NCBI GenBank assembly: GCA_021736135.1
Contig: JAIPGO010000027.1
Span: 1-39,822 of the forward strand
Source: Candidatus Cloacimonadota bacterium
GTDB taxonomy: Bacteria > Cloacimonadota > Cloacimonadia > Cloacimonadales > TCS61
Direction: 5' to 3'
DNA: 39,822 bases
Shown here: positions 21,147-38,210 of the stretch, piece by piece
How the letters are laid out: the number at the start of each line of letters is the position of its first letter
Numbering within the stretch: position 1 is the first letter of the stretch
The notes under the pieces: generated by a model
What the model was told of the DNA's origin: nothing
The model's database searches: none
What the model saw: the letters and a program-made list of their open reading frames with translations, nothing else
Made by a program: the position numbers and the translations under genes

Positions 21147-23075
21147 TTATTTTTTATATTCCAGTCCATATCCATAATGGAAGAGTGGATCATAATTTTC
21201 ATCACCGACATTCAAGTTTTCGTCATCGTAGCGGGGCCAGGAAAAGCTCAATTTTCCCTGTATATCCATGTCACCAAAGATCACATCAGCAACTCCCTGC
21301 CCTTCAGATCCCGGGAACCAGGCGACAACGAATGCCTGGGAAGCATCCAATTCCTGAGTAACTACCAGAGGACGACCACAGATCATAACTGTAACCACGG
21401 GAATCCCTTTACTGGTAATTCTGCGGATCGTTTCAATATCTTCCGGATGTAACTGGTGCAGATATAGATGAGTACCGTAAGGACCTTTTTTCATTATCGG
21501 TATATCTTCCCCCGGAAGAGTATCACGTGAGGTTGAACCCTTGCTGATCTTTAAGCCTTTAGCCAAACCTTCCACGCGAATATCACCCAGCATCTCAGCA
21601 TAAGGAACTTCCCCGATAACGACAATTGCCACATCCTGTTTACCCGGATCAGCATCCCTGCCATCGATGCACAAAACAGCATTAGGAGCCACTTTTTGTA
21701 TACTTTCCCAGATAGATGTTCCACCCACGATTTTGGAATTAGAGGTATCATAAGACGCCTCTATATCAGTATCCCGCTCAGATACTGTATCTTTATCAGA
21801 ATAAGAGCTACTGGCAACGGTCTCATTATCATTAACACCCTGCCAGGCAACCGTAAATCCACCACACTGATGGCCACGGTTATGAGCATTTTTTCCGGCT
21901 ACTAAAATGCGGCTGTTTTTATCCAACGGTAAAATATCATTGTCATTTTTTAACATCACGAGAGATTTCTGCACAGCTTCACGAGCAACTTCACGGTGTT
22001 CCAGGCAGCCAAAGCAGGAATTCTGCAAAGACATTTTCCGCTGGGCTGGACGCGGTTTGGTAAACATGCCAAACTTGTATTTCACTCTCAAAATACGACG
22101 TACAGCATCATCAAGACGTTCCATAGGAATGCGGCCATTTTCCACGCTGGTTTTTATATGCCCGATGAATTCCCGCCATTTTTCCGTTACCATAAACATA
22201 TCCATTCCGGCATTCATTGACATAACAACTGCTTCCTCATAATCATCATTAAGATAGTCAATACCATCCCAGTCTGAGACAACAAATCCATCAAATCCTA
22301 ATTCTTTCTTGAGAAGATCTGTTATCAGAAATTTATGCCCATGACATTTCTCACCAAACCAACTGCTTAATGATACCATTACCGTCAAAACTCCCGCATC
22401 AATAGCTGCCTTATATGGCGGAACATGAAGTTTTCTCAGCTCTTCTTCTGAAATGCACATATCGCCCTGATCTATACCGTGCAAAGTAGCACCGTCTCCA
22501 ACCCAGTGTTTCACACAGGCGATCACTTTATCTTCCTGAAAATCTCCCTGCAGTCCCTTCACAAACCGGGGTGCATATTCAGTAACAATTTTCGGATTTT
22601 CCGAATAGCTTTCATAAGTGCGGCCCCAATGACTATTCCGCGCCACAGCTAATGTAGGAGCAAATGTCCAGTCAACTCCGGTGGCAGTTATTTCTTTTGC
22701 CGTCACGGCAGCAATACGCTCAATCAAATCAGGATCATGTGCTGCGCCAAGACCAATATTATGAGGAAATACCACAGAACCTATCACATTTGTATTTCCG
22801 TGAATAGCATCAACACCATAGATGATGGGAATGGCGAGGTGATCTTCATCTTCTTCCATTGAGGCAGCCCAGTATTCATCATTCATTTTGATCCAGTCGT
22901 CAGGTTTGTTATCACCAGGAACGGAACCGCCTCCGCTCAAAATCGAACCAATATGATATTTCTTCACATCCGCCGGTGTGATGAATTCCCTTTCCGGTTG
23001 AGTTATTTGCCCAGCCTTCTGGTCTAAAGTCATTTTTGCCATCAATTCTGAAATCTGTTGTTCAATATCTTTCAT
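21147..23075 (-). CDS. Cytoplasmic GH3 beta-glucosidase / exo-beta-glucan hydrolase (ExoI-like)
   Basis: This is a two-domain family 3 glycoside hydrolase. The TIM-barrel half contains YGVDAIHGN (86-94), KHWVGDG (189-195) and the nucleophile Asp268 in VVSDWDGID. The C-terminal alpha/beta sandwich (about 360-640) runs to the end. The motifs are closest to plant ExoI and bacterial 1,3/1,4-beta-glucan exohydrolases. Unlike many of those it has no signal peptide, so it should act on imported oligosaccharides. It releases glucose from non-reducing ends, complementing the phosphorylase upstream. It is the last gene of the operon. Its start lies 14 nt inside the phosphorylase gene with GGAGA upstream. 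Confidence 0.93.
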   Translation of the reverse strand: MKDIEQQISELMAKMTLDQKAGQITQPEREFITPADVKKYHIGSILSGGGSVPGDNKPDDWIKMNDEYWAASMEEDEDHLAIPIIYGVDAIHGNTNVIGSVVFPHNIGLGAAHDPDLIERIAAVTAKEITATGVDWTFAPTLAVARNSHWGRTYESYSENPKIVTEYAPRFVKGLQGDFQEDKVIACVKHWVGDGATLHGIDQGDMCISEEELRKLHVPPYKAAIDAGVLTVMVSLSSWFGEKCHGHKFLITDLLKKELGFDGFVVSDWDGIDYLNDDYEEAVVMSMNAGMDMFMVTEKWREFIGHIKTSVENGRIPMERLDDAVRRILRVKYKFGMFTKPRPAQRKMSLQNSCFGCLEHREVAREAVQKSLVMLKNDNDILPLDKNSRILVAGKNAHNRGHQCGGFTVAWQGVNDNETVASSSYSDKDTVSERDTDIEASYDTSNSKIVGGTSIWESIQKVAPNAVLCIDGRDADPGKQDVAIVVIGEVPYAEMLGDIRVEGLAKGLKISKGSTSRDTLPGEDIPIMKKGPYGTHLYLHQLHPEDIETIRRITSKGIPVVTVMICGRPLVVTQELDASQAFVVAWFPGSEGQGVADVIFGDMDIQGKLSFSWPRYDDENLNVGDENYDPLFHYGYGLEYKK

Positions 23076-26000
23076 TTTTTATATTCTCCTTCTCGGATTT
23101 TTTAAGTTCAATTTCCATGCGGGCAATCTCACCAGCCCTGATCTTTACAGCAATTTCACCCGTTAAAACTGTGCCTGTAAATTTGCTTTTATTTCCCTCA
23201 ATATCAGTCAATAACCAGGAAACGGGTACAACACCAGCAGTTCCAAAAGTATCTGCCAGCTCCGGATTGTGGTATGTAACCAACATATTACTCAGGAACA
23301 TAAAGCTGAAGCTCTGGGCGGGAAATTCTATTTCCCAAAGTTTTTTATTGATGTATAGTTGACTTTTGCGTGGCTCCGTGGTAAACAGCCAGGCAGGCAG
23401 AGCAGGTTTCAGACTGAAACTTAATTCATTATCTGAATTGATAAAAAAAGGTTTTGCCCCGACACTCATCAGATGCAGGATATGAATAAATTCAGCAGTT
23501 GCACCACTCAATCTGGCGATAAAACCATTACCATGAATAGATGGATCAGGATTGGCACTACTCACGATGAAAGATGAATTCTCCAGAATGCTCCTGCCGT
23601 AAACTGCAGGCTCCATAAAAGGAACGAACACTTTTTTGAAATCCGTGTAAAACTCCTGATAAAGCTCATTACGCAGAAGTTCAAGCATGTATTTATATTC
23701 CATGTGCAGCCAGATGGATTCATTTTCAAACCATCCGGGAGAGAACGTGCGTGCCCTTCCTATTTCCATAGGCTGATCTTCTAAAGATTCATTAACCTTA
23801 TACATATTTAGTTTGTGATCGTAAAGACCGCTTTTTCTGATATTCTTAACGAGAGTTTTTGCCTGTTCCAGGTCTGTATTACTGCGCAGATAATGCACCG
23901 GACCTTCCAGGAAAAGCGGCAGTGCACGTTGTTCAAATTTCTTTGCTCTAAAGCAGGGCAATCCTTTGGCATTGCGGATCAACTTCACTTCACCGTTCAC
24001 ATCCGTAAATTTAATTTCCTCATATTCAACTGCTGCGTTTACGAAATAGGTGGAAATGACATTCTTCTCTTTATTCCAGGCTTTTTCAATTCCTGCCTCT
24101 AACTTATTTAGCCCTGCCAGCAGAAAATCTATAATTTTTTCCACAGTAACGGTTTTTTCACTTCCGCTGATCCCCAGGCGCGTTCTATGACGAAATATTT
24201 CTTTAACTGCTGTTGCCTGATCCCAATATTCAAAAGAAGGTAGATCTGCTTTCAGAATGCCATAAAGAGTATCCATAAAAACCTGCAATTCTTCACACAT
24301 AAACCACTTCTTTGCCGTCATATCCTGCTCGCGTAATGCCTCTAAAAGAAATAGTATATGCCTTTTTACTTCCAGAGTTTCGCTGATGCTCGATCCCATT
24401 AATCCCGGTAAACCATTAAGCGCATCATACCAGTTCGGCTTACCTGTTTCCATCTCAATTCCTATTCCTTCCGGATCAAGAGAGGCTAATTTATTAACTA
24501 TAAGGCACAATATCTTATTGATCAGAGTAGTATAATATACATCTCCTGAACCAGACAGGGTGCGGACTTTATTTCGATCATGATCCCGCTGGTTTATGAG
24601 AATATCCTTTTCTTCGTCAAAAACTACCGCCTCAAGCTGCATCGCCTTGCCATCCCAGATCACATATTTATCGTCTCGTGGCTGAACCCGATGCGGATTG
24701 TCATAATAGGAAAATGATTTTTTCTTAAAAAGGATATAATTCTTCTTTTCAGGATAAACTGCCAGAAAATTTTCCAGCAGATCAAGATTATATGTCCAGT
24801 GATCAGTCCAGAAACCTTCTCCATAACCGGTATCATGATTTTTGTGGCAAATGCCCAGCAGGTCTCCCAGGAAAACTTCCGTTTCACCTTGTACAACTAT
24901 TTGCTGTTCTTGCAGATACATCATCAATTCTCCCGGTGTGAATGAATTTTCGAGAAATGATGTAACTTGTTCCACACATTCCAAGCCGAGATATTCTGAA
25001 AGTACTTTTTTTACCTTTTCAGAATCGGAGAGTGTAAACCTTATTTCCTTGATTACCAGTGGATTAAATCCATCCAATTGGATCAGATTATAAAAATGTT
25101 CCACATTGCCTTCGCGAACATCCGGATTGAAAAAAAGATCATTCCGACGATTCTGGTTCACATCCCTGAAATTACCATTGCCCTGCGAATAATGTGTTGG
25201 TGCCAGACGATAATCATTATAGTCTCTTTCCAGATCTCCATGTTTTCTGGAGTAAAGATGCAGAGTTGAAGAATTTTCTTTGCCCTTCAATGTGTAAGGG
25301 AAACCTCCCCTGAGAGCATTATCCAAAAAATTCTGTCTGGCATAATGATCCAGAACGGGCTCACTGCTGCAAATAAAATTGTTCTGGGTCAATTTTTCGA
25401 CTAATTCCTGATTCATTCTGGCTTTTGTCTCTATATATTCTCTATTTGTGATAACGGGAACCAGATCATTCAATTCCTTCACAGAACCTGCGTGCCCGAT
25501 AATGGAAATATATGTATAAGTCTCACCAGGTTGGATTGTGGTATTAAAAATCCCCATGGCAGAAGGTAAACGGTTTTCAAATATTTGTCCTGAGATCATG
25601 TCTTCCCTTGAGGAAGTTAGAAACTTGTCAGGATAGTTGTAGTCTCCCCTGATACCGAATATCTTAGCAGGATCAACGATTGTTTTAATTAGCCGGGATT
25701 CATTGCCTTCCGACACAAATCCCAGATAGAAATTCCCTTCTTTTATTCTTACCACATCAGGTCTATCTGCCGGTTTTACTTTTCCTTTAAAAAAAGGTAC
25801 GCCATTTTCATGATTGACAACTTCCACAAATGCCTGTACTAAGTGTCGTATGTATTTCAAGCCCCCATTATCGATTCCGTAAGGGATAATGAGCGGTAAA
25901 CCGTCGAGACCTTCTAATGAAACGGGTTCAGATTTAATATTTTCGATTTGCAGTTTCCGGACCAGCCCGGCATAATTATCCTGTGGCACATTGAAATACT

Positions 26001-26418
26001 CAACTGTAAATTTCAATCCCAGTGTCTGATTCACCTCTTCCAGAGTCAATTGCGCCAGTGATATGATCAGGCGTTGACTTCGCTGCATCTCTTTATCGCT
26101 CAGATGATTTTGAAATGGTTCATAAAACTTTGTTATTTCATTATCAGCGAATTTTATAAAAGTCCTGAATCCCTGAGTTGATACCAGATTATATGCCCAG
26201 TTAGCAGGCAGAAATTCCATGATCGGATGGTCTTTATCCTCAATTCCCATACTGCAGATACATTGCCCGCGATTTACGTAAAATACCCACATCGGGATGC
26301 CATTTTTTCCTGCTACTCCGGGGAAAAAACTGGAAAATGATTTTGCTGAATTATAGTCACTTATAATGAATCTGCCATTCTCTTCCAATTGATATTTTTT
26401 TTCCTGGGATGATGTCAC
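23062..26418 (-). CDS. GH94-clan beta-glucan phosphorylase, best fit GH149/GH161 (beta-1,3-oligoglucan phosphorylase)
   Basis: The protein is 1118 residues, the size known for GH149 and GH161 enzymes and larger than typical GH94 cellobiose or laminaribiose phosphorylases (about 800). An N-terminal beta-sandwich (about 15-320) leads into an (alpha/alpha)6 barrel. FWTDHWTYNLDLLENF (536-551) and NWYDALNGLPGLMGSS (662-677) are visible, the latter holding the expected general acid Asp665. There is no signal peptide, so it works in the cytoplasm. It would convert beta-1,3-gluco-oligosaccharides and phosphate to alpha-glucose-1-phosphate, saving ATP. The GTG start has AGGAGG 5 nt upstream. A hairpin lies between it and the preceding surface-protein gene. 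The choice between GH149 and GH161 is not settled by eye. Confidence 0.85.
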   Translation of the reverse strand: MTSSQEKKYQLEENGRFIISDYNSAKSFSSFFPGVAGKNGIPMWVFYVNRGQCICSMGIEDKDHPIMEFLPANWAYNLVSTQGFRTFIKFADNEITKFYEPFQNHLSDKEMQRSQRLIISLAQLTLEEVNQTLGLKFTVEYFNVPQDNYAGLVRKLQIENIKSEPVSLEGLDGLPLIIPYGIDNGGLKYIRHLVQAFVEVVNHENGVPFFKGKVKPADRPDVVRIKEGNFYLGFVSEGNESRLIKTIVDPAKIFGIRGDYNYPDKFLTSSREDMISGQIFENRLPSAMGIFNTTIQPGETYTYISIIGHAGSVKELNDLVPVITNREYIETKARMNQELVEKLTQNNFICSSEPVLDHYARQNFLDNALRGGFPYTLKGKENSSTLHLYSRKHGDLERDYNDYRLAPTHYSQGNGNFRDVNQNRRNDLFFNPDVREGNVEHFYNLIQLDGFNPLVIKEIRFTLSDSEKVKKVLSEYLGLECVEQVTSFLENSFTPGELMMYLQEQQIVVQGETEVFLGDLLGICHKNHDTGYGEGFWTDHWTYNLDLLENFLAVYPEKKNYILFKKKSFSYYDNPHRVQPRDDKYVIWDGKAMQLEAVVFDEEKDILINQRDHDRNKVRTLSGSGDVYYTTLINKILCLIVNKLASLDPEGIGIEMETGKPNWYDALNGLPGLMGSSISETLEVKRHILFLLEALREQDMTAKKWFMCEELQVFMDTLYGILKADLPSFEYWDQATAVKEIFRHRTRLGISGSEKTVTVEKIIDFLLAGLNKLEAGIEKAWNKEKNVISTYFVNAAVEYEEIKFTDVNGEVKLIRNAKGLPCFRAKKFEQRALPLFLEGPVHYLRSNTDLEQAKTLVKNIRKSGLYDHKLNMYKVNESLEDQPMEIGRARTFSPGWFENESIWLHMEYKYMLELLRNELYQEFYTDFKKVFVPFMEPAVYGRSILENSSFIVSSANPDPSIHGNGFIARLSGATAEFIHILHLMSVGAKPFFINSDNELSFSLKPALPAWLFTTEPRKSQLYINKKLWEIEFPAQSFSFMFLSNMLVTYHNPELADTFGTAGVVPVSWLLTDIEGNKSKFTGTVLTGEIAVKIRAGEIARMEIELKKSEKENIKNERY

Positions 26419-26459
26419 TGCAGCCTCCTGTTTTATCTATATCATTTGTTCATAAAATG

Positions 26460-26491
26460 GGCATCAGCCGGTAATATTACCGGCTGACGCC
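26460..26491 (-). terminator. 16-bp hairpin inside the glucan operon
   Basis: GGCATCAGCCGGTAAT (26460-26475) pairs with ATTACCGGCTGACGCC (26476-26491). All 16 positions pair in minus-strand RNA, one as G-U. It lies 9 nt past the stop of the 1482-residue protein gene and is followed on the minus strand by CATTTTATG, a poor U-run. It probably stabilises the upstream mRNA or ends part of the transcripts before the cytoplasmic enzyme genes. Confidence 0.7.
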
Positions 26492-26499
26492 GTTTTATC

Positions 26500-29400
26500 T
26501 TATTTCAGCAGGATCATACGTTTAGTATCGATTGTCCTGTTATCAACACTCAGACGATAGAAATATACTCCCGAGGGAGCTGTATCTGCATTCCAGGTCT
26601 GATGATATGTATTAGCAGCTCTTGACCCATCAACAAGGGTATCCACCAGTCTTCCTTTTGTATCATATACGCTGAGCTTTACGTGACCCGGCTGAGTTAA
26701 ACTGAATGTGATAGTAGTCACTGGATTGAAAGGATTAGGATAATTGCTTCCCAAAGCAGAATTAACCTGAATCGGATTATCTTCATTTGTACCAGTTACG
26801 TTATTATGGAAGTAAATATTGTCAACATACACATTATTGGGATCACCAGAGATGATCAACTGGGCTAAGTGTTCAGTAGTCGTTAATCCGGTAAAATCAG
26901 AAAGAGGAATATCAAAACATACCCATTCGCCAGTCATCAGTGCCGGTGTTGTATTAGCATCAAAAGTAAGCTCATGCTCCACATCATCTCCACCACTCCA
27001 AACGCCATCTGCTCCAAAATCTACGAGCTTGATCTTAAATACTGCTGGAAGAGTTGTGGGATCGGGTGTCCAGATATCCATGTGGAAATGATTCATCGCC
27101 GTGGCATCAATCGTTTGAGATGTAAATTCAATCCCTGCAAATACAAGACTGGTGTAAAGCTTCACGTCATCTCCCATAACCTGCACATCTGTAACATTAG
27201 CCTGATCCCATTCTGCAGACCAGGTGTCAACCGTTACATTAGTGTAGGCATTACTAAATAGTGAAATCACATTTTCTTGAGCAAAAGCAGGTGTTGGAGC
27301 AGGTTCTTCTGGTCCTTCCGGTCCAGCACCCTGTTCATGGAATGTTACATTGTCTATATAGCAGATATTGTCCTGAGTTCTTCCTGCCAGATCGAAATCC
27401 GGGAAAATGACTATCTGATCGATTATTCCAGTGATACCTGCGCCGATACTTCCTGATAGATCAAAAGTTAATTCTTCCCATTCATTTATAACGCTGTTAG
27501 CAACCTTAACTTCCGGCTGTGCTTCACCACTGGCTTCCACGAATTTTACTCCTACATCACTGATCACCGGTTTCCAGACCATCACTTTTACGGTGCAATT
27601 TGTCTCGTCAAAACTGAATTCACCCAGATCTGAGCCATGCTGTGATTCACATCCGGCCCAGGGCTGCCCTGTCTGCAAAGCCGTAAATTTCATCACGGTT
27701 GCGGAAGTGTTTATTCCTGAAACATCAGGATTTGCTAAAATCTCTACAGGGGGATTGTAATCATTTTCAAAAACAGTCCAGGTCCAGTCAGCTCCATAGC
27801 CACCAGCTTCAAAATCAATGGGTGCATGCAATTCACGGGTATTACCCGATTGCAGGTCTGCATTGGAAAACTTGTAATGTTGCTCAACTCCATTAACAGT
27901 GATGGTAAATTCGAGTTTGCTGCTCCTGGCTGTGGTATTATAAGGAATGCGCAGCATTTCACCCGAAATAATCTCCGGGCTGGCAAGAGCAACAGAAAAT
28001 TCTTCCTGGTTTATCGCACTTAAAAGCCCTTCTTTAATGATCGTATTGCCAAAAACAACACTTTCCGAACTTGCTTTTAATTGCAAACTATATACTTCAC
28101 CAGTACCTGTGAGTATTATCTCATTATTTTCTATTTTAATATCAACTCTGCCCTGAGGAGAAGAACCTGTTCTTGTTTGTACTGGGAAAATATCAATCAA
28201 GTCAACACTGTACTGCAGAACAAGTGCTGCATCATAAGCTTCTGCTGAACCGTTTCCATCAACATCACCGGCGATAAGCTGCCAGGTCCAGGGTAAAGGT
28301 GCACCTATGGGATCAAGCATAACAGCAAACTGAAGAAGATTAGCTGCATCAAAAGCATCAATACTCCAGTCTCCTGTAACGTCACCATACAACCAGTAAG
28401 GACCACCGTCATAGAAATATACATTATCAACATAAACCGTGTTGGGATCTCCTGAAATGATCAACTGGGCCAGGTGTTCTCTTGTTACCAGTCCGGTAAA
28501 ATCCTCAAAAGGAATATCAAGACTTACCCAGGTCTCTGTTGCCATTATAGTTTCATCAAAAGTTATTTCGTGTTCCACGTCATCTCCACCCCAAACGCCA
28601 TCTGCTCCAAAATCAACCAGTTTCACCTTGAAAACAGATGGAGCTGCCGTGTTATCTGGAGTCCAGATATCCATATGAAAATGTGTCATTCCGGAAGCAT
28701 CAATCGTCTGCGATGTAAACTCGATTCCTGCATAAACCAGATTAGTATAAAGCTTTGTATCATTTCCGGCGATCTGGATATCTTCAAGATCTGCCATATC
28801 CCATCCGGCTGACCAGGTATCAACAAATACATTTTCGTAATCATTACTATATAAAGAAATTACATGTTCTGCTTCCATTTCCGGAGTGGGAGCCGCTATT
28901 TCAGGTACAGCATCAGCCAAGGTGAAATTTACGTTGTAAGTCAGCATTGTTTCGCCATCTTCTGCTGTTACAACCACTTCGGTAGTGCCGGGAAGCATTG
29001 CTGCAGCATTAACCACGAAGTCTGCTTCAGGATCATTCGTAACGGCAGTTACTACGGGTACTTCAACCGTTCCTGCTGCTAATTCCACCTCATAATTCAT
29101 TACTGAAGGTAAAAATCCCTCTATTGTAACTCCATCCACCAGCAGATCACTCAGCGTTGCATCACTGCCGGGTACATTTGCTGAATAAAAATATATGTTA
29201 TCAAGATATATGGTAGAAGGATTAACTCCTGCCTGCCCATCAAATTTCAACTGGATTATATCTGCCATTGTCATGCCCGTGAAATCAGATAATAGAATAT
29301 CATAACTGTTCCATTCTAAAGAATTTATGGGATCCAGAGGTAGCAGGTGTTCACCAGTTGTTGCACTGATCGGAGAAAACTGAACTACCGTTGCATCAGG

Positions 29401-30948
29401 CGTCCACATGTCTATATGCAAAAAACTCATAGCACTTAAGTCGGTGCTCCCGGCAAATGCTGTTCCCTGATAATTGAAATTATCATACTTCAACATCATA
29501 TATCCAGCAATTTCTTCAAAGGTAACAACTGTGCTCTGTCCCCAGTTCGGATTGAAATTTGTGCCTGCGATGTCATCATAACTATCACTAAAGATAGATA
29601 TAACACTTACTCCCGGTAATGTGGGGTCCGGTGCCGCTGTCTGTGGAACCGGTGTGGGGAAATAGAAGTTTACGTTGTAAGTAAGCATATTACTTTCATC
29701 TTCTGAAGTAACTACTACTTGTGTTGTTCCAGGCAGCACTTCTGTATCAATTACTTCATATTCAGCATTGGGATTTGTTGTCGTTGCTGTTACTGTTGGA
29801 ATAATTGTTGTCCCTTCTGGCAATTCAATATCATAAGTCAATGTCGTGGGGGCAAATCCGGCAACAGTTACCCCGTCAACCTGTAGATCACTCAAAGTGG
29901 CTACTGTTTCAGGACCATCTGGCAATTTATAAAAATAGATATTATCAAGATATATGGTGGAAGGAGTTACTCCCTGCTGACCATCAAATTTCAATTGAAA
30001 GATATTTCCCATGGGAAGTCCTATAAAATCAGTTAAAGGGATATCTATACTGTTCCAGGTCTCTTGTTCCAGGGGAGAAAGGAGCACTAAAAATTCACCG
30101 GGAGGAGCGCTGATGGGAGTAAACATAACTACGGTAGCATCAGCCGTCCACAGATCTATATGAACAAATTCCATCAAAGAAAGATCCTGAGCTGCACTGA
30201 ACTGAGTACCCTGATAATTGAAATTCGCATATTTCAGGGTTAAGTTACCAGCTATAAGCGGAGTAGATACAATTGTTGACTGACCCCAGGGAGGATTAAA
30301 ATTTGTTCCAGGAAGGTCTTCATAAGAATCACTGAAAACTGAGATTACATCTTCGGCAGCCTGCATTGGGGCTGGCGCTGCAACCTGTGGCTCATTTCCT
30401 GCGATCTGTTCGCTGAATGTTACGTTATCATAATAGATGATGTTATTCTGTAACCTGCCAGCCATATCAAAATCGGGGAAAAATACAAACTTGTTATAAG
30501 TATTCCCGATAGCACCTGAAAAGTCATAAACGATCTCTTCCCACTCACCAGTTACAGTATTTGTGGAATTGATCTCTGCCGGTGCACCTGTTCCTTCAAA
30601 TTTCAACCTTACGTCACTTACTACGTCTTTGTGCACCATTATGCTGACGGTACTGTTATCGGCTGTAAAGGTAAATTCTCCGATATCAAGTGTCTCGCAG
30701 CCAGCCCAGGGCTGTCCTGCCTGTAATGCAGTGATCATTCCAACGGTAGCTGACTCATTAAGCCCTGCTACATCAGGATTAGCCACTACTTCAACTGGTG
30801 GGTTTGTCGCATTTTCAAATACTGTCCAGGTCCAGTCTGCTCCATATCCGCCTTCCTCAAAATCGATAGGTGCGTTCTGGGCAAAAATTAACGTATTCAT
30901 CGCCAAGATGAATAATAATACGAAAAAGAACTTTGTTCTGTTTTTCAT
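26500..30948 (-). CDS. Secreted multi-module glucan-binding candidate with dockerin-like segment and T9SS sorting domain
   Basis: This non-catalytic 1482-residue protein has a signal peptide (1-23). Module order as I read it: type A beta-sandwich (26-181); type B (203-341) plus cadherin-like domain (350-429); a second type B (450-588) plus cadherin-like domain (598-676); type C (697-846); a dockerin-like calcium segment with GDVTGDWSIDAFDAANLLQF and GDVDGNGSAEAYDAALVLQY (853-920); an unassigned domain (930-1040); a second type A (1042-1206); a second type C (1228-1382). It ends with a FlgD-like/Por sorting domain (1402-1482) containing NYPNPFNP and PSGVYFYRL. The A, B and C modules look like carbohydrate-binding domains (late DNIYFY strand), and type C recurs in the GH16 enzyme. 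It should sit on the cell surface and hold glucan. Its binding ability is inferred. Confidence 0.85.
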   Translation of the reverse strand: MKNRTKFFFVLLFILAMNTLIFAQNAPIDFEEGGYGADWTWTVFENATNPPVEVVANPDVAGLNESATVGMITALQAGQPWAGCETLDIGEFTFTADNSTVSIMVHKDVVSDVRLKFEGTGAPAEINSTNTVTGEWEEIVYDFSGAIGNTYNKFVFFPDFDMAGRLQNNIIYYDNVTFSEQIAGNEPQVAAPAPMQAAEDVISVFSDSYEDLPGTNFNPPWGQSTIVSTPLIAGNLTLKYANFNYQGTQFSAAQDLSLMEFVHIDLWTADATVVMFTPISAPPGEFLVLLSPLEQETWNSIDIPLTDFIGLPMGNIFQLKFDGQQGVTPSTIYLDNIYFYKLPDGPETVATLSDLQVDGVTVAGFAPTTLTYDIELPEGTTIIPTVTATTTNPNAEYEVIDTEVLPGTTQVVVTSEDESNMLTYNVNFYFPTPVPQTAAPDPTLPGVSVISIFSDSYDDIAGTNFNPNWGQSTVVTFEEIAGYMMLKYDNFNYQGTAFAGSTDLSAMSFLHIDMWTPDATVVQFSPISATTGEHLLPLDPINSLEWNSYDILLSDFTGMTMADIIQLKFDGQAGVNPSTIYLDNIYFYSANVPGSDATLSDLLVDGVTIEGFLPSVMNYEVELAAGTVEVPVVTAVTNDPEADFVVNAAAMLPGTTEVVVTAEDGETMLTYNVNFTLADAVPEIAAPTPEMEAEHVISLYSNDYENVFVDTWSAGWDMADLEDIQIAGNDTKLYTNLVYAGIEFTSQTIDASGMTHFHMDIWTPDNTAAPSVFKVKLVDFGADGVWGGDDVEHEITFDETIMATETWVSLDIPFEDFTGLVTREHLAQLIISGDPNTVYVDNVYFYDGGPYWLYGDVTGDWSIDAFDAANLLQFAVMLDPIGAPLPWTWQLIAGDVDGNGSAEAYDAALVLQYSVDLIDIFPVQTRTGSSPQGRVDIKIENNEIILTGTGEVYSLQLKASSESVVFGNTIIKEGLLSAINQEEFSVALASPEIISGEMLRIPYNTTARSSKLEFTITVNGVEQHYKFSNADLQSGNTRELHAPIDFEAGGYGADWTWTVFENDYNPPVEILANPDVSGINTSATVMKFTALQTGQPWAGCESQHGSDLGEFSFDETNCTVKVMVWKPVISDVGVKFVEASGEAQPEVKVANSVINEWEELTFDLSGSIGAGITGIIDQIVIFPDFDLAGRTQDNICYIDNVTFHEQGAGPEGPEEPAPTPAFAQENVISLFSNAYTNVTVDTWSAEWDQANVTDVQVMGDDVKLYTSLVFAGIEFTSQTIDATAMNHFHMDIWTPDPTTLPAVFKIKLVDFGADGVWSGGDDVEHELTFDANTTPALMTGEWVCFDIPLSDFTGLTTTEHLAQLIISGDPNNVYVDNIYFHNNVTGTNEDNPIQVNSALGSNYPNPFNPVTTITFSLTQPGHVKLSVYDTKGRLVDTLVDGSRAANTYHQTWNADTAPSGVYFYRLSVDNRTIDTKRMILLK
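28921..30342 (-). repeat. Tandem two-copy unit (type B sandwich plus cadherin-like domain) in the surface protein
   Basis: Residues 203-429 and 450-676 are the same two-domain unit twice. Shared stretches include FSDSY, a NFNP.WGQST segment, NFNYQGT and STIYLDNIYFY, as well as LPGTT.VVVT in the following domain. The spacing of 247 residues is constant. This indicates an internal duplication that has diverged. Confidence 0.8.
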
Positions 30949-32018
30949 TTGTCCTCCATTAAGGTATTTTTCTTCATTTTTTCCATCTTTATATAATTAA
31001 GAAAAGATTCCTTGGGTGTTCGGTCTTCATAAAACACTCCCCAATTCTTTTCTATTTCATTTGCTGCCGTCGCTTCTCCCCCGCCTTTCCACGGTTCATC
31101 AAAAGCTTCAAACAAAAATGTTGTTACCTGATTACTGCTGACCCAGTTGTGCAATTCCATGAGAAATGTTTCCTGAGCTTTTAAGCTGACTTCACCTTTG
31201 ATCAAAGTGCCCTGCTCTCCAGGACCCTTTTTCTCTGAATTGTAGGAAGTTGCCCAGCCTATTTCTCCGAGAACGATTTGTTTCCCTGTATGAAATTCTT
31301 TGAGTTCCTGATAGTTTGCGTTCAGCCATTCTATAGAAGAATCCAGTGTTTTCCCGTTCCACAGCGGATATATGTGAGTTACAACGAAATCCACCTCAGA
31401 AGCTACCTTTTTGCTCTCAGGCTTGTTCCAGAAATTGTAATCATCCGCAGTCGTCACGGGAACTTGGGTATATTTACGAACTGTTCTGATATATCTTATC
31501 AGGTCTTCTTCTGCCATCCTGTGCCAGGACCAGAAAACCTGGGTTTCATTTCCTACATTAACTGCTATTACTATATCATTATACTTATTGGTAAGTTCTA
31601 TACAACGTAGAGTATTCGTGATATTATTTTCCTTGTTCGAGCGATTATTATCTTCATTTTCCAGCCACACACCCAGCATGACCTTGATCGGTATTTGGTT
31701 TTCTGCTATGACCTGCAGTATGCGCTCCGTATCATCATCTGCATTATATACCCTGATCAGATTCCAATGCTGTGCTATGATCGTCAGATCTTCCTGTATT
31801 TCTGCCTTTGAAGGTCCCTGCAAGCCGGGAGCCTGACCTTTTCTGTAGCAGCCGTATGAAACTGCCTCTCCTGTCAGATCAATGCTCAATTCTCTTTTAA
31901 TAAAAGGTTCTTCCTGATGCATATCATTTGTTTTCAGTCCCAGGCGAATTTCTGAGATCGCATCTGCTGTAATAGAAATACTCCAGAGCATAAACAGAAT
32001 GATCAGAGCTTTTTTCAT
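30945..32018 (-). CDS. Secreted GH17 family beta-1,3-glucanase/transglycosidase
   Basis: A signal peptide ends near residue 20 (ITADA). The rest is a TIM barrel with the GH17 marks. NVGNET (154-159) carries the acid/base Glu158, and VLGEIGWATSYN (249-260) carries the nucleophile Glu252, matching the LGNE and ETGW motifs of the family. VRVYNADD is the usual strand-2 motif (here IRVYNADD, 88-95). It would cut or rearrange beta-1,3-glucan outside the cytoplasm. No C-terminal sorting domain or lipobox is present, so it may be periplasmic. The stop overlaps the start of the surface protein gene (ATGA), and its last codons contain that gene's GGAGG. Confidence 0.88.
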   Translation of the reverse strand: MKKALIILFMLWSISITADAISEIRLGLKTNDMHQEEPFIKRELSIDLTGEAVSYGCYRKGQAPGLQGPSKAEIQEDLTIIAQHWNLIRVYNADDDTERILQVIAENQIPIKVMLGVWLENEDNNRSNKENNITNTLRCIELTNKYNDIVIAVNVGNETQVFWSWHRMAEEDLIRYIRTVRKYTQVPVTTADDYNFWNKPESKKVASEVDFVVTHIYPLWNGKTLDSSIEWLNANYQELKEFHTGKQIVLGEIGWATSYNSEKKGPGEQGTLIKGEVSLKAQETFLMELHNWVSSNQVTTFLFEAFDEPWKGGGEATAANEIEKNWGVFYEDRTPKESFLNYIKMEKMKKNTLMEDK

Positions 32019-33691
32019 AACTGGATCCTCACTGTCTGCACTGCGTTAGCAGCGATTTCCACTTCTGCAAATTGACTGCCTATCTGCAGATTATAAATTA
32101 TGGGTTTATCTGTGGTGTTTAATAACTGAACACTTAAAATATTATCAGCATTCAGTGTCGCACACGCATGCAGAGCATCACTGCCCAATCCGGTTAATTG
32201 CATCTGGGTATTCACGGCCTGATCACCAGGTCGGATCGTCCGGCTGAATTGCGCTAAAACATAATATACCGGAGTATAATAGATTTCCTGAGTTTCAGTA
32301 TCTATCATAATGGGCGCTCCGCAGAAATTCCCCACATGATTGGGTCCGCCATTTCGGTCTAAAACTATATTCCAGTCGATCCAGCCTTTCACCCAGTGAT
32401 CAAGGCTGACGATTATATTTCTGGCATAACGATGAACTGGAGTATAAACGGGATGATCTTCAACTTTCACGCCTTCCCACGGAACCGTATATCCCCAGTC
32501 TGTTGCGTTATCATTCCACCAGAATTCGTCATTATCAAACCAGTTGCTTTCTTTAAATCTTTCCGGGTCTGCTACTCCAAAAGGTGCATCCTTTCCCAGA
32601 TCGTCTATACAGCCTTCCGTATGTATGATGCCAAACTCAGGATACTTCTCATGTACTCTGTCAAAGATTTCTTCATACACCCTGAATGTGCTTTCATACC
32701 AGTGAACTGCCACACCATAAACATATTGCGCTGATTCGGGATCGGCAAAAATCACATCCGTCCAGTCTTCGATCCCATCACGATTCTGATCATAGATCAG
32801 AAGTTTGATATCATCATATCCGCCGGCTTGCAATTTTGGTCCCAATTCACTTTTCACAAATTCGTTCTGCGATTCAGGCGTAAAATTCATACTTTCCCAC
32901 TGACCATTATTACCATGCGGTTCATTTACCGGAGTTATTCCCCAGATATTAACGCCTTCAGCTTTATAAGCATCCAGATATTTCACAATATAATCTGCAT
33001 AAGTGGAAACATATACGGCTTTTAATGATCCTCCGGTTCCCTGCCAGTTATTTTCAGGTGCTCCGGGAATATACCAGTCTTCGATATCTTTCATCCAGGC
33101 AGGTGCCGTCCAGGCTGAAGATACGATCCGTAATTGATTATCCTGCTGTCTGTTTTTTATTGCCAGTGCCTCTTTGATCATCGGCAAAAGGTCATAAGTC
33201 TCATCCTTGATCCCGGCATATTCTTTCGCACTGAAACCCTCTTTATCAGGGGCGATGTCAAAACTTTCCAGACCATCTTCTTCTTTGTCCGCATAAGAAT
33301 ATCTGCCCTTTACACTAAAATCACAGGCTCCAATATGCGTTCTGGCAAGCGTAAAATCCGCCCCGGTTTCACTGAATATTTTTTCCATCACCTGATGTCT
33401 CATATCTTTATCCAGATGCGCCAGCACGTAGGCTGAGGATTCCGTAAACGACGTCCCGATGCCGTCAATGGTCTGTTTTAAGCTGTCAGGATAAATGTGA
33501 ATTACTGTTCCCTCTGCTTCACCCTGCCTAAAGGTTACGTTATCCTGCAGTGCCAGTTTATCACCACTCGCTGAGGTCAGCAGAATTTCGTATGTTGAAA
33601 CGGGGTTATTGCTTTCATTAGCTCCACAACCGCTATATAACGCTAAAAGAATTATGAAAACCAGTGTTTTTAATATATTCTTTCGCATCAT
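32015..33691 (-). CDS. Lipoprotein GH30 beta-glucanase/glucosidase
   Basis: The N-terminus is a lipoprotein signal with lipobox LYSGC (Cys22). The GH30 (alpha/beta)8 barrel with its beta side domain follows. GITPVNEPHG (251-260) holds the acid/base Glu257, and IIHTEG (355-360) holds the nucleophile Glu359. DGIGTSFTESSAY near the N-terminus is the usual family opening. In a beta-1,3-glucan locus a GH30 is expected to remove beta-1,6-linked glucose branches or cut beta-1,6 stretches (subfamilies 1 or 3), but the subfamily is not decided by eye. The C-terminal part (about 480-558) is the beta sandwich. It overlaps GH17 by 4 nt. Confidence 0.9.
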   Translation of the reverse strand: MMRKNILKTLVFIILLALYSGCGANESNNPVSTYEILLTSASGDKLALQDNVTFRQGEAEGTVIHIYPDSLKQTIDGIGTSFTESSAYVLAHLDKDMRHQVMEKIFSETGADFTLARTHIGACDFSVKGRYSYADKEEDGLESFDIAPDKEGFSAKEYAGIKDETYDLLPMIKEALAIKNRQQDNQLRIVSSAWTAPAWMKDIEDWYIPGAPENNWQGTGGSLKAVYVSTYADYIVKYLDAYKAEGVNIWGITPVNEPHGNNGQWESMNFTPESQNEFVKSELGPKLQAGGYDDIKLLIYDQNRDGIEDWTDVIFADPESAQYVYGVAVHWYESTFRVYEEIFDRVHEKYPEFGIIHTEGCIDDLGKDAPFGVADPERFKESNWFDNDEFWWNDNATDWGYTVPWEGVKVEDHPVYTPVHRYARNIIVSLDHWVKGWIDWNIVLDRNGGPNHVGNFCGAPIMIDTETQEIYYTPVYYVLAQFSRTIRPGDQAVNTQMQLTGLGSDALHACATLNADNILSVQLLNTTDKPIIYNLQIGSQFAEVEIAANAVQTVRIQL

Positions 33692-33709
33692 AATATCCTG
33701 AGATTTTTC

Positions 33710-35164
33710 TTAAACAACTTCTTCAGCTTCATTTTTTTGAGCATGCCGTTTTTCCAGTTCTATACGATTTTCATTTACGCGTTCTTCAGTTAGATCATAA
33801 TTACGCATCAGTAAAAGTGCGATTGAAGTTCCTAATATAGGTAATCCGGAATAAAAAATTCTCAATCCTGTTATTGCTCCTTCAGGTTGCGTAGCAGCGC
33901 CAGCATCAAATCCCACTACTGACATAATAACGCCACTCAAAAGTCCTGCAATAGCAAAGCCAAATTTTACCATCCACCAGTAAATGGCTCCAAATACTCC
34001 TTCCCGACGTTTTCCTGAATTTAATTCGTCCAGATCCATCACATCCGAAGTCATTGACATCATCAAAGTAAATAAACTTCCTATACCAAAAGAAAAGAAA
34101 GGCAGCGCTATGATGAACATGTAAGGTTTTCCGGGAATAAAAAGAAACCATAACAGGATATAACCAATGATTGAGATGCTCTGCGAGATCATAAATGCTT
34201 TCTTTTTCCCATATAACCTTGACATGCGAGCAACTATGGGAATCACAATAAAAGTAGTTCCCAGTGCACCCAGGCAGCCAAAAAGCGTGGGCCATATCCC
34301 TGCAGCTCCGGCATTGCCTCCAAACAGACGATATACAATAATAAAAAATGAAAACGCTGCAATGGTGTTAAAGGCATTAAATATAAAAAAGGTGGATATA
34401 CATAATTTTACAAACTGTGGGATCCTGAAAGCTTCTTTAAAGTTGGCAAAGATTTCTACTAAACTGCTGCCAATTGAATTAAAGTTAAGGGGTAAGTAGT
34501 CTTCTTTTAGCGTAGATTTACTCTTTATAAATATTGCCGGAACCAATGCAAACAGAGTACAGACAATACCTACCCATACGGCAAGTGTCCTGGTTGCCAC
34601 ATCTGCTGATGGGAACCAGTCCTGGTCGTACATAATTACCCAGAACCAGGGAGCAATAACCCATGCCCACTGCCCGATCCATTGGGCTACTGCCATAATG
34701 CTTGTTCTTTCATTATAATCGTTGCTCATCTCATAACCCATGGCAACGTAAGGTACACTGAAAATAGTCAAACCAAGATAGAAGACAAACGAAAGTAGCA
34801 GAAAATAGATAAAGTTGTACGTGATTCCATTTTCAGCATGCAGTTGCCACATTATGATGAAGGCTGCTCCCATGATGATCGAACCAATTAATACATACTT
34901 TCTTCTTCTGCCCCATCTCGATCTGGTGTTATCCGAAATAAAACCCATGATGGGATCAGTGACAGCGTCAAATACCCGGGGCAGGAAAAATAACATGCCC
35001 CACATCCAGCCCGGAAAACCCAAATCCTGTACAAGGACAACCATAAAAATACCCAGGACAGCAGGAAACATCTGATTGGCTAACATACCTACGCCAAAAG
35101 CAACTTTCTGTCCGAATGGAACTGAATTTCTATTATTTGTTAAGGCAACTTTTTCTTTGCTCAT
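33710..35164 (-). CDS. GPH-family (MFS) sugar:cation symporter
   Basis: A 484-residue polytopic inner-membrane protein with about 12 helices. The loop GFISDNTRSRWGRRRKYVLI (about 74-93) is the defining signature of the glycoside-pentoside-hexuronide:cation symporter family. NERTSIMAVAQW and the C-terminal GAIYWWMVKFGFA block fit as well. It would carry short beta-glucans or glucose oligomers into the cytoplasm using a Na+ or H+ gradient. It lies between the GH16 and GH30 genes with gaps of 12 and 18 nt, so it is part of the operon. It is the only importer encoded by the locus. Confidence 0.9.
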   Translation of the reverse strand: MSKEKVALTNNRNSVPFGQKVAFGVGMLANQMFPAVLGIFMVVLVQDLGFPGWMWGMLFFLPRVFDAVTDPIMGFISDNTRSRWGRRRKYVLIGSIIMGAAFIIMWQLHAENGITYNFIYFLLLSFVFYLGLTIFSVPYVAMGYEMSNDYNERTSIMAVAQWIGQWAWVIAPWFWVIMYDQDWFPSADVATRTLAVWVGIVCTLFALVPAIFIKSKSTLKEDYLPLNFNSIGSSLVEIFANFKEAFRIPQFVKLCISTFFIFNAFNTIAAFSFFIIVYRLFGGNAGAAGIWPTLFGCLGALGTTFIVIPIVARMSRLYGKKKAFMISQSISIIGYILLWFLFIPGKPYMFIIALPFFSFGIGSLFTLMMSMTSDVMDLDELNSGKRREGVFGAIYWWMVKFGFAIAGLLSGVIMSVVGFDAGAATQPEGAITGLRIFYSGLPILGTSIALLLMRNYDLTEERVNENRIELEKRHAQKNEAEEVV

Positions 35165-35176
35165 GTTTTCCCTTCT

Positions 35177-37879
35177 TTATTGTGCTTCTAAATAGATGTC
35201 ATCAAAATACAGCTTGCCAAATAACACTGTACCTGTGTCATTTTGAGGATTTGATAAAACCAGAAAATGTACTTCAGACAGGTCAACTCCGGTAAAATCG
35301 CTTAACGGTATCTCATACCTTGCCCAGTTTCCATTTACTATTGGTGTATAATCCCCAGTTTCAATCTCAAAAGAGTTTGCCTGTGTATGCTCTAACTTAA
35401 TTTTCATACTGTCAAATTCACTCATTTCTGATTTATCAATATTGATCACAAAAGTACTATATGCGGTCATATCTGCTCCGGGAACACCATAATCATAGGC
35501 TATCCCACCCCAACTCGATCCGGAGTTAAAATCAAGACTCATTACAAAACTGCCATCCACAGGAACAACCTCAGTGCTCTCTAAATCTACATCCACAACG
35601 TTACCACCCCAGTCAGCACTGTTCCATATCTGAATATAAGCCAGCATCGGGTCAATATGAGATTCAGAATAAATTCCAACTGTTGTGGATTGTTCTTCAG
35701 AATAGAAATATATATTATCCATATAAACTGTAGAAGGACCTGGATCAGCACTAATAACTAATTGAGCCATATGTTCAGTAGTCGTTAATCCGGTAAAATC
35801 AGCAATTGGAATATCAAAATGTACCCATTCTCCTGCCGCTAAGGCAAAAGAGAGCTCTTGTTCTACATCATCTCCTCCCCAAACACCATCAGCACCAAAA
35901 TCAACAAGTTTGATCTTAAAGGCAGCAGTTGCTGTTGGATCAGATGTCCAAACATCCATGCAGAAGTTTGTCATAGCAGAAGCATCAATTGTTTGTGAAG
36001 TAAACTCAATTCCTGCAAATATCAGATTTGTATATTTTTTTGTGTCATTGCCGTTAATTTGAATATCTTCCACATCAGCGTTATCCCAGTCCGCCGACCA
36101 AGTATCAACCGTTACATTCGGATATGCATTACTGAAAAGAGAAATTACATTTTCTGCATTTTGTGTTGGGGTTGGAGCTGCAGCTTCCGGTGAATCGGGA
36201 CTCCCTGAATCTATTGCAGCAAAATCAGTTCTTTCAGTTCCACTCGCATCGGTATAGAATGCTGTAATAGCAACAGCGTTAGTTATTTCTATTGTATCAT
36301 TATCATCATTAGTTAAACCGAAATTCAAAGTTCCGGTTCCTTCCCCATCCCCATCGAGTATGATATCAATGGAAATTGTTTCTGATCCATTATCCACCGA
36401 AACAGATATTGTATCATTAGCAGCAGCTTCGTCTGTTACAGAAATCTCTGCCATAGTATCATCAACTGAATACGTATCAGCATCAAAAGATACACTACCC
36501 GCAGTCGTTCCACCTCCATCCCAATAGATGTCATCAATTGCAAACTGGCACGCAGTTCCATTTTCTTCTAAAATGATAAATTCATAACTTAAAAGACTCA
36601 GGTCCACACTCCCTTTCAGTTCAGCTATCGGAATAACTGCCTGCCCCCATTCCCCATTCCGCACCAGCCCGTAAGCTGTTTGATTTGCCGGAAAATCCAC
36701 ATAACTTTCCACTGCGGATATATCATTTATACCAATTTTAAAGCCCACGTTAGCCGGCATCTTGATCATAAATTTCAGATTGCCCTCTGCAAAGCCGGAT
36801 AGATCTACAGGAACATTCGAACTGATACCGCCACCAAACCAGCCGACTCCCGTGGTTGACCAGGCGATCACATTATCACCCTCAAAAGGTGCTATAGAAG
36901 CTGCTTCCAATGTGTTTTCCCAGACGTAGATCTCGGCATTTAATCCTACGGTCAACCCGGCATCTACCACGGTTTCATCTGTGAATATTCCATAACTGCT
37001 GATTTCCGCCGTGTCACTTTCGCCCTGATAAACCCTGACCCAGTCCACATACATTTTCTGTGGCCACTCAGTTGTGACATCTGGTGTTCCACCCAGATTT
37101 CCGCCAACTGCTACATTTAATATAATAAAAAACTTTCGTAAAAATTCATCCATCGTTGCAGGGTCTATCAGTTTCACATAATATGTGATATCATCGATCC
37201 TGCCTACCACACGCTGCTCATCCCACTCTACTTCAAATACGTGATAATCATCACCCAGAGAGGTACTCAATTCCCGCGTCGTTCCATAACTTTCATGATA
37301 TTCTTCTATGTCGTTCCACCAGTGAAGAGTGCACATGGTCGTATTGCTGCCATGATATAACGGACTCATCTCCATTATATCTATTTCTCCGCAATAGGGC
37401 CAGCCGGCTCCATCAAAACTGCTACCCAGCAGCCAGAAAGCAGGCCACATACCCATTCCCACAGGAGCTTTGATCCTCGACTGGATTTTGCCAAACTTGA
37501 AGGAAAATTTGTCTTTCGTATTTACACGTGATGAAGTTACTGAACCATCACGCTTGCCGGGACTGGTATAATTAACTGAATCCCAAACTGCCAAGATCAC
37601 CAATTTGCCGTCTTCCACTTTCACATTTTCTGGATCGCTGGTATATTCCTGCCATTCGTCATTGCCCCAGCCATCTCCTCCATAACCAAGATCATAACCC
37701 CATTTTTCACTGTCCAATTCACTACCCGCCTCATTAAACTCATCAGACCAGACCAGTTCATAATTGGGAAAATCTGTGGAGTCTGTTTGCGTTTCAGGAC
37801 CTGATACACGATCACATCCGTTAATAAATAGTAAAATGATTACTGGCAGCAGAACTAAATTAAAAATCTTATTCTTCAT
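35177..37879 (-). CDS. Surface lipoprotein GH16 endo-beta-1,3-glucanase (laminarinase) with four extra modules
   Basis: A lipoprotein signal ends at lipobox INGC (Cys22). The GH16 catalytic domain (about 40-287) has GEIDIMEMS with nucleophile Glu165, Asp167 and acid/base Glu170; the extra residue between Asp and Glu (ExDxxE) is the mark of laminarinases rather than lichenases. After it come a beta-sandwich module (about 292-455), an Ig-like domain rich in Asp/Thr (about 462-556), a type C module (578-727) matching the two copies in the T9SS cargo protein, and a last sandwich (about 734-900). The long acidic tail suits glucan binding at the surface. First gene of the operon; a strong GGGAGG precedes the ATG. 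Confidence 0.92.
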   Translation of the reverse strand: MKNKIFNLVLLPVIILLFINGCDRVSGPETQTDSTDFPNYELVWSDEFNEAGSELDSEKWGYDLGYGGDGWGNDEWQEYTSDPENVKVEDGKLVILAVWDSVNYTSPGKRDGSVTSSRVNTKDKFSFKFGKIQSRIKAPVGMGMWPAFWLLGSSFDGAGWPYCGEIDIMEMSPLYHGSNTTMCTLHWWNDIEEYHESYGTTRELSTSLGDDYHVFEVEWDEQRVVGRIDDITYYVKLIDPATMDEFLRKFFIILNVAVGGNLGGTPDVTTEWPQKMYVDWVRVYQGESDTAEISSYGIFTDETVVDAGLTVGLNAEIYVWENTLEAASIAPFEGDNVIAWSTTGVGWFGGGISSNVPVDLSGFAEGNLKFMIKMPANVGFKIGINDISAVESYVDFPANQTAYGLVRNGEWGQAVIPIAELKGSVDLSLLSYEFIILEENGTACQFAIDDIYWDGGGTTAGSVSFDADTYSVDDTMAEISVTDEAAANDTISVSVDNGSETISIDIILDGDGEGTGTLNFGLTNDDNDTIEITNAVAITAFYTDASGTERTDFAAIDSGSPDSPEAAAPTPTQNAENVISLFSNAYPNVTVDTWSADWDNADVEDIQINGNDTKKYTNLIFAGIEFTSQTIDASAMTNFCMDVWTSDPTATAAFKIKLVDFGADGVWGGDDVEQELSFALAAGEWVHFDIPIADFTGLTTTEHMAQLVISADPGPSTVYMDNIYFYSEEQSTTVGIYSESHIDPMLAYIQIWNSADWGGNVVDVDLESTEVVPVDGSFVMSLDFNSGSSWGGIAYDYGVPGADMTAYSTFVINIDKSEMSEFDSMKIKLEHTQANSFEIETGDYTPIVNGNWARYEIPLSDFTGVDLSEVHFLVLSNPQNDTGTVLFGKLYFDDIYLEAQ

Positions 37880-38189: not shown

Positions 38190-38210
38190 ATGGTAAAAAA
38201 ATATGAGTGA
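38190..38210 (+). promoter_or_regulatory. Six-codon leader ORF overlapping the regulator start
   Basis: ATG at 38190 opens a frame of six codons (MVKKYE) that stops at 38210, after the regulator's ATG at 38203. It has AAGGA 5 nt upstream, ideal spacing, whereas the same AAGGA is 18 nt from the regulator ATG. The frames differ by one, and the A7 run at 38195-38201 lies between them. Confidence 0.4.

Follow-up and report, generated by a model that had tools for sequence, protein, structure and literature searches.

An internal dockerin and a putative cohesin-derived domain in a multimodular T9SS cargo protein from a candidate laminarin locus of Cloacimonadota

Most of what is known about cohesin-dockerin assembly comes from cellulose degraders whose anchoring is of the Gram-positive type. 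In the X-dockerin (XDoc) of clostridial scaffoldins, the X module stands before the dockerin. Zuhlke et al. 2024, the study to which the structure 8qx6 is presumably linked, reportedly described laminarin-binding modules in multimodular proteins from marine Bacteroidota.

A cellulosome-like system has been described in Ca. Stygibacter, where, in the account that we draw on, a 3,755-aa scaffoldin is accompanied by GH18, GH57, S8 and C25 enzymes that carry a dockerin at the C-terminus (PMC8542988). The same article describes the planctosome as a non-cellulolytic, peptide-directed cohesin-dockerin system. By these descriptions alone, the planctosome and the Cloacimonadota system are alike in being non-cellulolytic and peptide-directed, but they belong to different phyla. 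The main text of section 7 of PMC8542988 has no mention of a class of proteins with a dockerin, an X module and a tail, of an X module, or of a dockerin on a beta-glucan-binding protein.

Here we analysed a contig of a Candidatus Cloacimonadota bacterium (JAIPGO010000027.1, 39,822 nucleotides; hereafter, the window) from a genome of 4.14 Mb in 148 contigs, whose nearest named relatives are Cloacimonadota MAGs, including Ca. Stygibacter frigidus. The cohesin-dockerin system of this genome resembles that of Ca. Stygibacter as described in PMC8542988 in its lineage, in the C-terminal dockerins on GH18, GH57, S8 and C25 proteins, and in its multi-cohesin scaffoldins with a C-terminal surface-anchoring domain; however, that account names one scaffoldin, whereas we read several scaffoldin ORFs here, together with 54 dockerin ORFs. 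With the Stygibacter cellulosome-like system already published, what is added here is a pair of dockerin layouts, a probably cohesin-derived X domain, the position of the dockerin-X unit (Doc-X) at a fusion seam, and a locus that fits laminarin. Cohesin-dockerin assembly is thereby seen joined to T9SS export in an uncultured phylum, and it appears to extend to a beta-1,3-glucan (laminarin) locus.

Module architecture and locus of the window protein

The window protein is encoded by a 1482-aa ORF on the minus strand (26500-30948). Its module order is signal peptide-A1-B1-K1-B2-K2-C1-dockerin-X-A2-C2-T9SS tail, with the following coordinates (residues in brackets):

30880-30948 (1-23), minus strand: signal peptide, called by eye, MKNRTKFFFVLLFILAMNTLIFA
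30403-30876 (25-182), minus strand: A1, putative laminarin-type glucan-binding module, 60% identical to A2; residues 35-154 match 8qx6_A (phmmer 6e-7)
29914-30402 (183-345), minus strand: B1, beta-sandwich homologous to C by pairwise alignment
29653-29913 (346-432), minus strand: K1, cadherin-like (Pfam PF12733, 17.9 bits, below the cut-off of 24.2), 57% identical to K2
29179-29652 (433-590), minus strand: B2, 64% identical to B1
28909-29178 (591-680), minus strand: K2, cadherin-like by its pairing with K1
28405-28908 (681-848), minus strand: C1, 69% identical to C2, a module also found in the GH16 protein of the locus
28168-28404 (849-927), minus strand: type I dockerin, with calcium loops from D856 and D895
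27829-28167 (928-1040), minus strand: X, putative cohesin-derived domain travelling with the dockerin, assigned by its slot and by profile comparison
27328-27828 (1041-1207), minus strand: A2, beginning at the apparent mature N-terminus of A-C-tail proteins that occur separately
26794-27327 (1208-1385), minus strand: C2, assigned by its pairing with C1
26503-26763 (1396-1482), minus strand: T9SS type A sorting tail (TIGR04183, 43.9 bits, cut-off 23; PF18962, 37.7 bits)

The internal pairs A1/A2, B1/B2, C1/C2 and K1/K2 aligned with E values of 5e-70, 2e-72, 3e-88 and 1e-32, respectively, and with z-scores of 32-95 against shuffled sequences. Since the copies are only 62-73% identical in DNA, the duplications are old. 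B1 and C1 also aligned with each other (34% identity, E 2e-25), so that the sandwich families are fewer than the three kinds, each present twice, of the original prediction: the pairs are real, but the kinds come down to A and one B/C family, with the K pair in addition. The same prediction had placed the A and C pairs on both sides of the dockerin and had seen a tandem duplication of B; the module order agrees with the first, with A1 and C1 before the dockerin and A2 and C2 after it, and the second proved to be a repeated B-K unit. The T9SS tail had been recognised correctly as well, and its TIGR04183 score lies well above the cut-off. The genome also has a T9SS (SprA_N, 87.7 bits) and at least 150 sorting tails. 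By its sorting domain and the T9SS of the genome, the window protein qualifies as a predicted T9SS type A cargo.

The genes around the window protein were annotated by family scan, and the lipobox-like N-termini were called by eye:

21147-23075, minus strand: GH3 beta-glucosidase-like protein
23062-26418, minus strand: divergent relative of GH149 1,3-beta-glucan phosphorylase (NF058639, 126 bits against a cut-off of 1150)
30945-32018, minus strand: GH17-like protein (23.2 bits, below the cut-off of 28.2), whose stop overlaps the start of the window-protein ORF
32015-33691, minus strand: GH30 protein, endo-1,6-beta-glucanase-like, with a lipobox-like N-terminus
33710-35164, minus strand: MFS/GPH-type sugar symporter
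35177-37879, minus strand: GH16 protein with C/B-type modules at its C-terminus and a lipobox-like N-terminus
38203-39261, plus strand: GntR-type regulator with a periplasmic-binding-protein-like domain

All genes from 21147 to 37879 lie on the strand of the window protein, and the stop and start codons of the GH30, GH17 and window-protein genes overlap. Relatives of the six flanking genes are also found around the ortholog in genome G019 (L079/L097). Furthermore, related modules were found at 78 loci in named genomes, and one or more of the six flanking proteins has a relative in 57 of these (MFS 36, GH17 35, GH16 27, GH30 26, GH3 21 and GH149 13). In profile comparison, the A module matched the solved chain 8qx6_A (E 1.2e-8), and the GH16 protein of the locus itself also carries the C module. 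Modules B and C had no confident match among solved chains, the best for C being at chance level (E 0.22). In the family scan, none of the six flanking proteins, enzymes and transporter alike, matched a dockerin or cohesin family; no SusC/SusD pair was found among these six either, and an MFS/GPH symporter is present instead. By context, this would be a beta-1,3-glucan locus, and its set of GH16, GH17, GH30, GH149-like and GH3 proteins fits laminarin. The window protein resembles the laminarin-binding proteins of marine Bacteroidota in the homology of its A module to 8qx6_A and in the similar locus content of its relatives. Unlike those proteins, it has Doc-X inside, and this cassette occurs in 0/48 dockerin-free module-bearing ORFs. 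In another part of the window (2931-6422), we observed a 1163-aa protein with an adenylate/guanylate cyclase domain, an AAA ATPase and many TPRs.

Dockerins and cohesins in the genome

The segment had been described as dockerin-like. Its Dockerin_1 score (PF00404, cut-off 22.9 bits) was 22.6 bits in the scan of the whole protein and 28.3 bits in the genome search. Both calcium loops (D-x-[DNTS]-x-[DNS]...D repeats) are intact, and the closest solved relative is 4uyp_B (E 4e-8 with the single sequence and 2.6e-16 with the profile), presumably the ScaB dockerin of Acetivibrio; it is thus a real two-repeat dockerin. Among the 53 dockerin ORFs examined, the window protein included and L068 outside the count, both loops are intact in 52. 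At the cohesin-contacting positions, which we assigned from what we take to be known of type I dockerins, the window protein, the Doc-X proteins and the proteins with a C-terminal dockerin are alike (A/S at 10, mostly Y/F at 11, L at 17 and mostly Q at 18).

The proposal of docking presupposed a cohesin-like partner in the genome. We found 26 cohesin matches, 21 of them above the Pfam cut-off, so a potential docking partner exists; 59 dockerin matches were found at E <= 0.1, 48 of them above the cut-off. Reading the loci with models built for this analysis gave 54 dockerin ORFs in two layouts. In 26 ORFs, many of them peptidases, the dockerin stands at the end (no more than 31 residues after it) and there is no T9SS tail; in another 26, Doc-X is followed at once by a T9SS tail. 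The remaining two are L068, with the order dockerin-cohesin-tail, and the window protein. Since the dockerin tree intermingles the layouts (9-10 label changes), they are not two clean clades. In 25 of the 26 ORFs with a C-terminal dockerin, the scan found five C25, two S8 and two M14 peptidases, GH18, GH57, a peptidylarginine deiminase, an endonuclease I and CotH. No dockerin-bearing cellulase of GH5, GH9 or GH48 was found in these 25, the other ORF being a 104-aa fragment in L064; for the Doc-X ORFs, the view of this question covers the 25 commonest of 42 families.

Cohesins were read in 15 ORFs with 32 copies in total; of these ORFs, nine possess a T9SS tail, another three lack one and the last three are truncated at a contig end, and the scaffoldins in G000 carry up to eight cohesins. 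The genome therefore combines a multi-cohesin scaffoldin with dockerin-bearing enzymes, the combination that is taken as the criterion for a cellulosome. In two conserved neighbourhoods (C123/C110/C69 and C50/C98/C37 in G000, G019 and G004, respectively), a Doc-X-tail gene lies directly upstream of a multi-cohesin scaffoldin. In the first of these, the order dockerin gene, Doc-X gene, scaffoldin was read in G000 and G019, and G004 fits, with cohesin matches beside the Doc-X gene and the scaffoldin outside the listed ORFs. These neighbourhoods correspond to loci L061, L083 and L088 and to L063, L086 and L090; the first also has a dockerin-ending gene, which encodes a C25 peptidase in L061. The Doc-X of the window protein is nearest to the cassettes of both neighbourhoods, and its closest counterpart in its own genome (82% over 82 columns) is encoded directly upstream of a five-cohesin scaffoldin.

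Across 124 genomes, the counts of Doc-profile matches and cohesins, which are lower bounds, were correlated with a Spearman coefficient of 0.49 when kinship was ignored. Three genomes are rich in Doc-profile matches and have few Pfam cohesins (G027, at least 28 vs 5-6; G002, 23 vs 2; G116, 23 vs 1), which suggests that scaffoldin docking may not be the only or original use of the cassette. In addition, a Doc-profile match was present in 52 genomes, and for 13 of these no Pfam cohesin was among the matches listed.

Several further proteins were observed. In G027, cohesin, dockerin, X and tail occur in one chain (L092, L093 and L094). Small single-cohesin proteins without a T9SS tail are encoded in L067 (2925-3449), L069 (7946-8734) and L052 (5410-5961); two of them have lipobox-like N-termini, and they are possible lipoprotein anchors for dockerin enzymes. 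Two dockerins were found in viral contigs. One IMG/VR contig (L175) codes at 2979-5210 for a 743-aa protein without X, whose C-terminus is a dockerin of the same family as that of the window protein; this contig, filed as viral, is probably bacterial sequence.

The domain that follows the dockerin

Across the phylum, X fills the slot between dockerin and tail, except in L177, L181 (two proteins), L185, L188, L095 and L068, where a recognisable cohesin stands in its place. In L177, the Pfam Cohesin match (28.3 bits) falls within the match of the Doc-X profile. When profiles were compared with hhalign, X matched the post-dockerin cohesins with P 3.8e-5 and all cohesins with P 8.1e-5 (probabilities of 61-71%); the reversed control gave 0.26. 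Five other domain profiles gave P 0.15-0.83, and on these values a kinship of X with A, B, C, K or the tail was rejected. As a further control, the tail profile matched the pooled cohesin profile with P 5e-7 in the last columns only, which is put down to some cohesin rows still carrying residues of the tail at their end.

X is not an ordinary cohesin. Pfam Cohesin (PF00963) matched 0/40 X sequences at E <= 1, and we therefore call X cohesin-derived, not a cohesin; the 40 Doc-X sequences were selected from 112 phmmer rows (E < 1e-15, near full length, duplicates dropped). A PDB sequence search with X gave no match, and X and the dockerin are not repeats of each other (alignment z -0.2). Because relatives have a recognisable cohesin in the same slot, X is most likely derived from a cohesin and has lost recognisable cohesin sequence, a derivation that we state short of certainty since the hhalign probabilities are moderate. 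The original prediction had regarded residues 930-1040 as a partner or fold support for the dockerin, which came close, as both the slot and the profile match make the segment look like a degenerate cohesin. Like clostridial XDoc, the unit is a dockerin with a companion domain; unlike XDoc, the companion comes after the dockerin and appears to be cohesin-derived. Proteins ranging step by step from dockerin-cohesin-tail to dockerin-X-tail offer a way to examine, with small recombinant constructs, where a dockerin companion domain comes from and what it does.

Structure models of Doc-X from single-sequence and three-row jobs both had a pLDDT of 48, too poor to judge packing. The weak model of X has nine strands, and the cohesin-like 2jh2 took Foldseek ranks 1, 3 and 6 at E >= 1.4e-3 with many unrelated sandwiches near. 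With VIA, the same model gave Z values of 7-8, common to many unrelated sandwiches, and the top rows were pilin, adhesin and copper-protein domains, not cohesins. The fold comparison of X thus carries little weight.

A fusion seam and the proposed role

The two halves of the window protein have their counterparts in neighbouring genes in Zophobacter (L081/L102) and in L100: a tail-less B-K-...-C protein, followed by a protein with signal peptide-A-C(-C)-tail. Doc-X is absent from these two-gene loci. The A-C-tail half is also a free-standing protein in L020, L101 and L103. In the window, G019, L098 and G004, which are the four orthologs that reach the seam, both halves form one chain with Doc-X at the join. 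A2 starts with the residues (APIDFE or a close variant) that come after the signal peptide in the free-standing A-C-tail proteins. Among the 52 module-bearing ORFs listed, four have a dockerin, all of them in the clade of the window protein, and 48 have neither a dockerin nor the Doc-X cassette; the window protein is also the only one of 27 Doc-X ORFs in its own genome in which the tail does not follow directly. At the level of sequence, the cassette marks the seam of a fusion between two putative glucan-binding genes that are kept separate in cohesin-poor relatives.

Identity to the orthologs is 76-85% for the dockerin, 71-89% for A, B and C, and 46-54% for X, the least conserved module. X also has the highest pN/pS (0.39-0.44), a rough ratio because synonymous sites are near saturation. 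Conservation of the dockerin, the fastest divergence in X, and contact positions as in C-terminal dockerins favour an external cohesin over X as the partner.

The protein had been proposed to be a cell-surface glucan-capture scaffold. Glucan capture is consistent with homology and context (the 8qx6_A match, the C module in the GH16 protein and the 57 of 78 loci); the term scaffold is not supported, since there is no Pfam-recognisable cohesin in the protein, and docked adaptor would be the better name. On balance, we consider it probable that the window protein is a laminarin-capture adaptor that docks in trans, with X as a support or mask for its dockerin. The T9SS would export this non-catalytic protein of a laminarin-use locus, which would capture beta-1,3-glucan of the laminarin type, and the internal dockerin would bind cohesins of the large T9SS-anchored scaffoldins. 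Sugar-capture arms would thereby share a surface assembly with dockerin-bearing hydrolases, and the captured glucan would be cut by the lipoprotein-like GH16 and GH30 and the secreted GH17 proteins of the locus. X would most likely give structural support to the dockerin or mask it in part. A point against a docked adaptor is that the protein has its own T9SS tail and so would not need docking to reach the surface. The Doc-rich genomes with few cohesins, the negative scan of the locus proteins for dockerins and cohesins, and the want of a confident solved match for B and C also count against it.

The dockerin could instead be occupied by its cohesin-derived neighbour, the unit then being a calcium-stiffened spacer or stalk with no docking site. 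The recognisable cohesins in the X slot of relatives, the short linker between dockerin and X, and the existence of genomes rich in Doc and poor in cohesin all speak for such a locked unit. However, X diverges fastest while the dockerin is conserved, the 26 ORFs with a C-terminal dockerin have the same contact residues without any X, and the quality of the AlphaFold models is too low to reveal any packing; we regard a locked unit as unlikely, though worth keeping in mind. Still less probable is a surface lattice in which the dockerin of one chain binds the X or cohesin of the next T9SS protein: a dockerin and a cohesin or X in one chain would permit polymerisation, and proteins with dockerin-cohesin-tail and cohesin-dockerin-X-tail do exist, but recognisable cohesin sequence has been lost from X, as the Pfam result indicates. 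Equally improbable is a vestigial dockerin, a partnerless calcium-binding fold in a plain multimodular glucan-binding surface protein, for although the T9SS tail is enough for anchoring and most of the module-bearing ORFs listed, common in relatives, do without a dockerin, the calcium loops are intact in nearly all dockerin ORFs examined, the dockerin is strongly conserved and cohesins abound in the same genome.

Returning to the docked adaptor, a more tentative extension, which we consider doubtful as a whole, is that Doc-X before a T9SS tail forms a distinct cassette in which a degenerate cohesin keeps the dockerin masked or gated up to export, or up to the point where a scaffoldin cohesin displaces the degenerate one. 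This cassette might have become widespread among the surface proteins of several Cloacimonadota lineages, and it might, in the present case, have welded two separate laminarin-binding proteins into one docked capture arm.

A separate observation concerns an element present in multiple copies, which abuts the stop codon of T9SS-tail genes; it has inverted-repeat-like ends and, as seen in the copy of G092, two DUF1670 ORFs (Pfam PF07900). 'DUF1670' had no mention in the open-access literature searched. The full copy is in L220 (G092:C194). A search of the whole own genome found copies at 18 contig ends (L192-L209), visible as ends only because the contigs break there; 16 of the 18 lie exactly after ...KMxLxK*-type ends (AAATAG), with the consensus A..ATG.T..T..T.AAATAG. 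In other Cloacimonadota, related copies follow the stop of a T9SS-tail gene at most of the sites seen (L210, L211, L212, L214, L217, L222 and L223), with exceptions such as L218. The element looks like a transposon that inserts where T9SS sorting domains have their conserved end, without disrupting the host protein.
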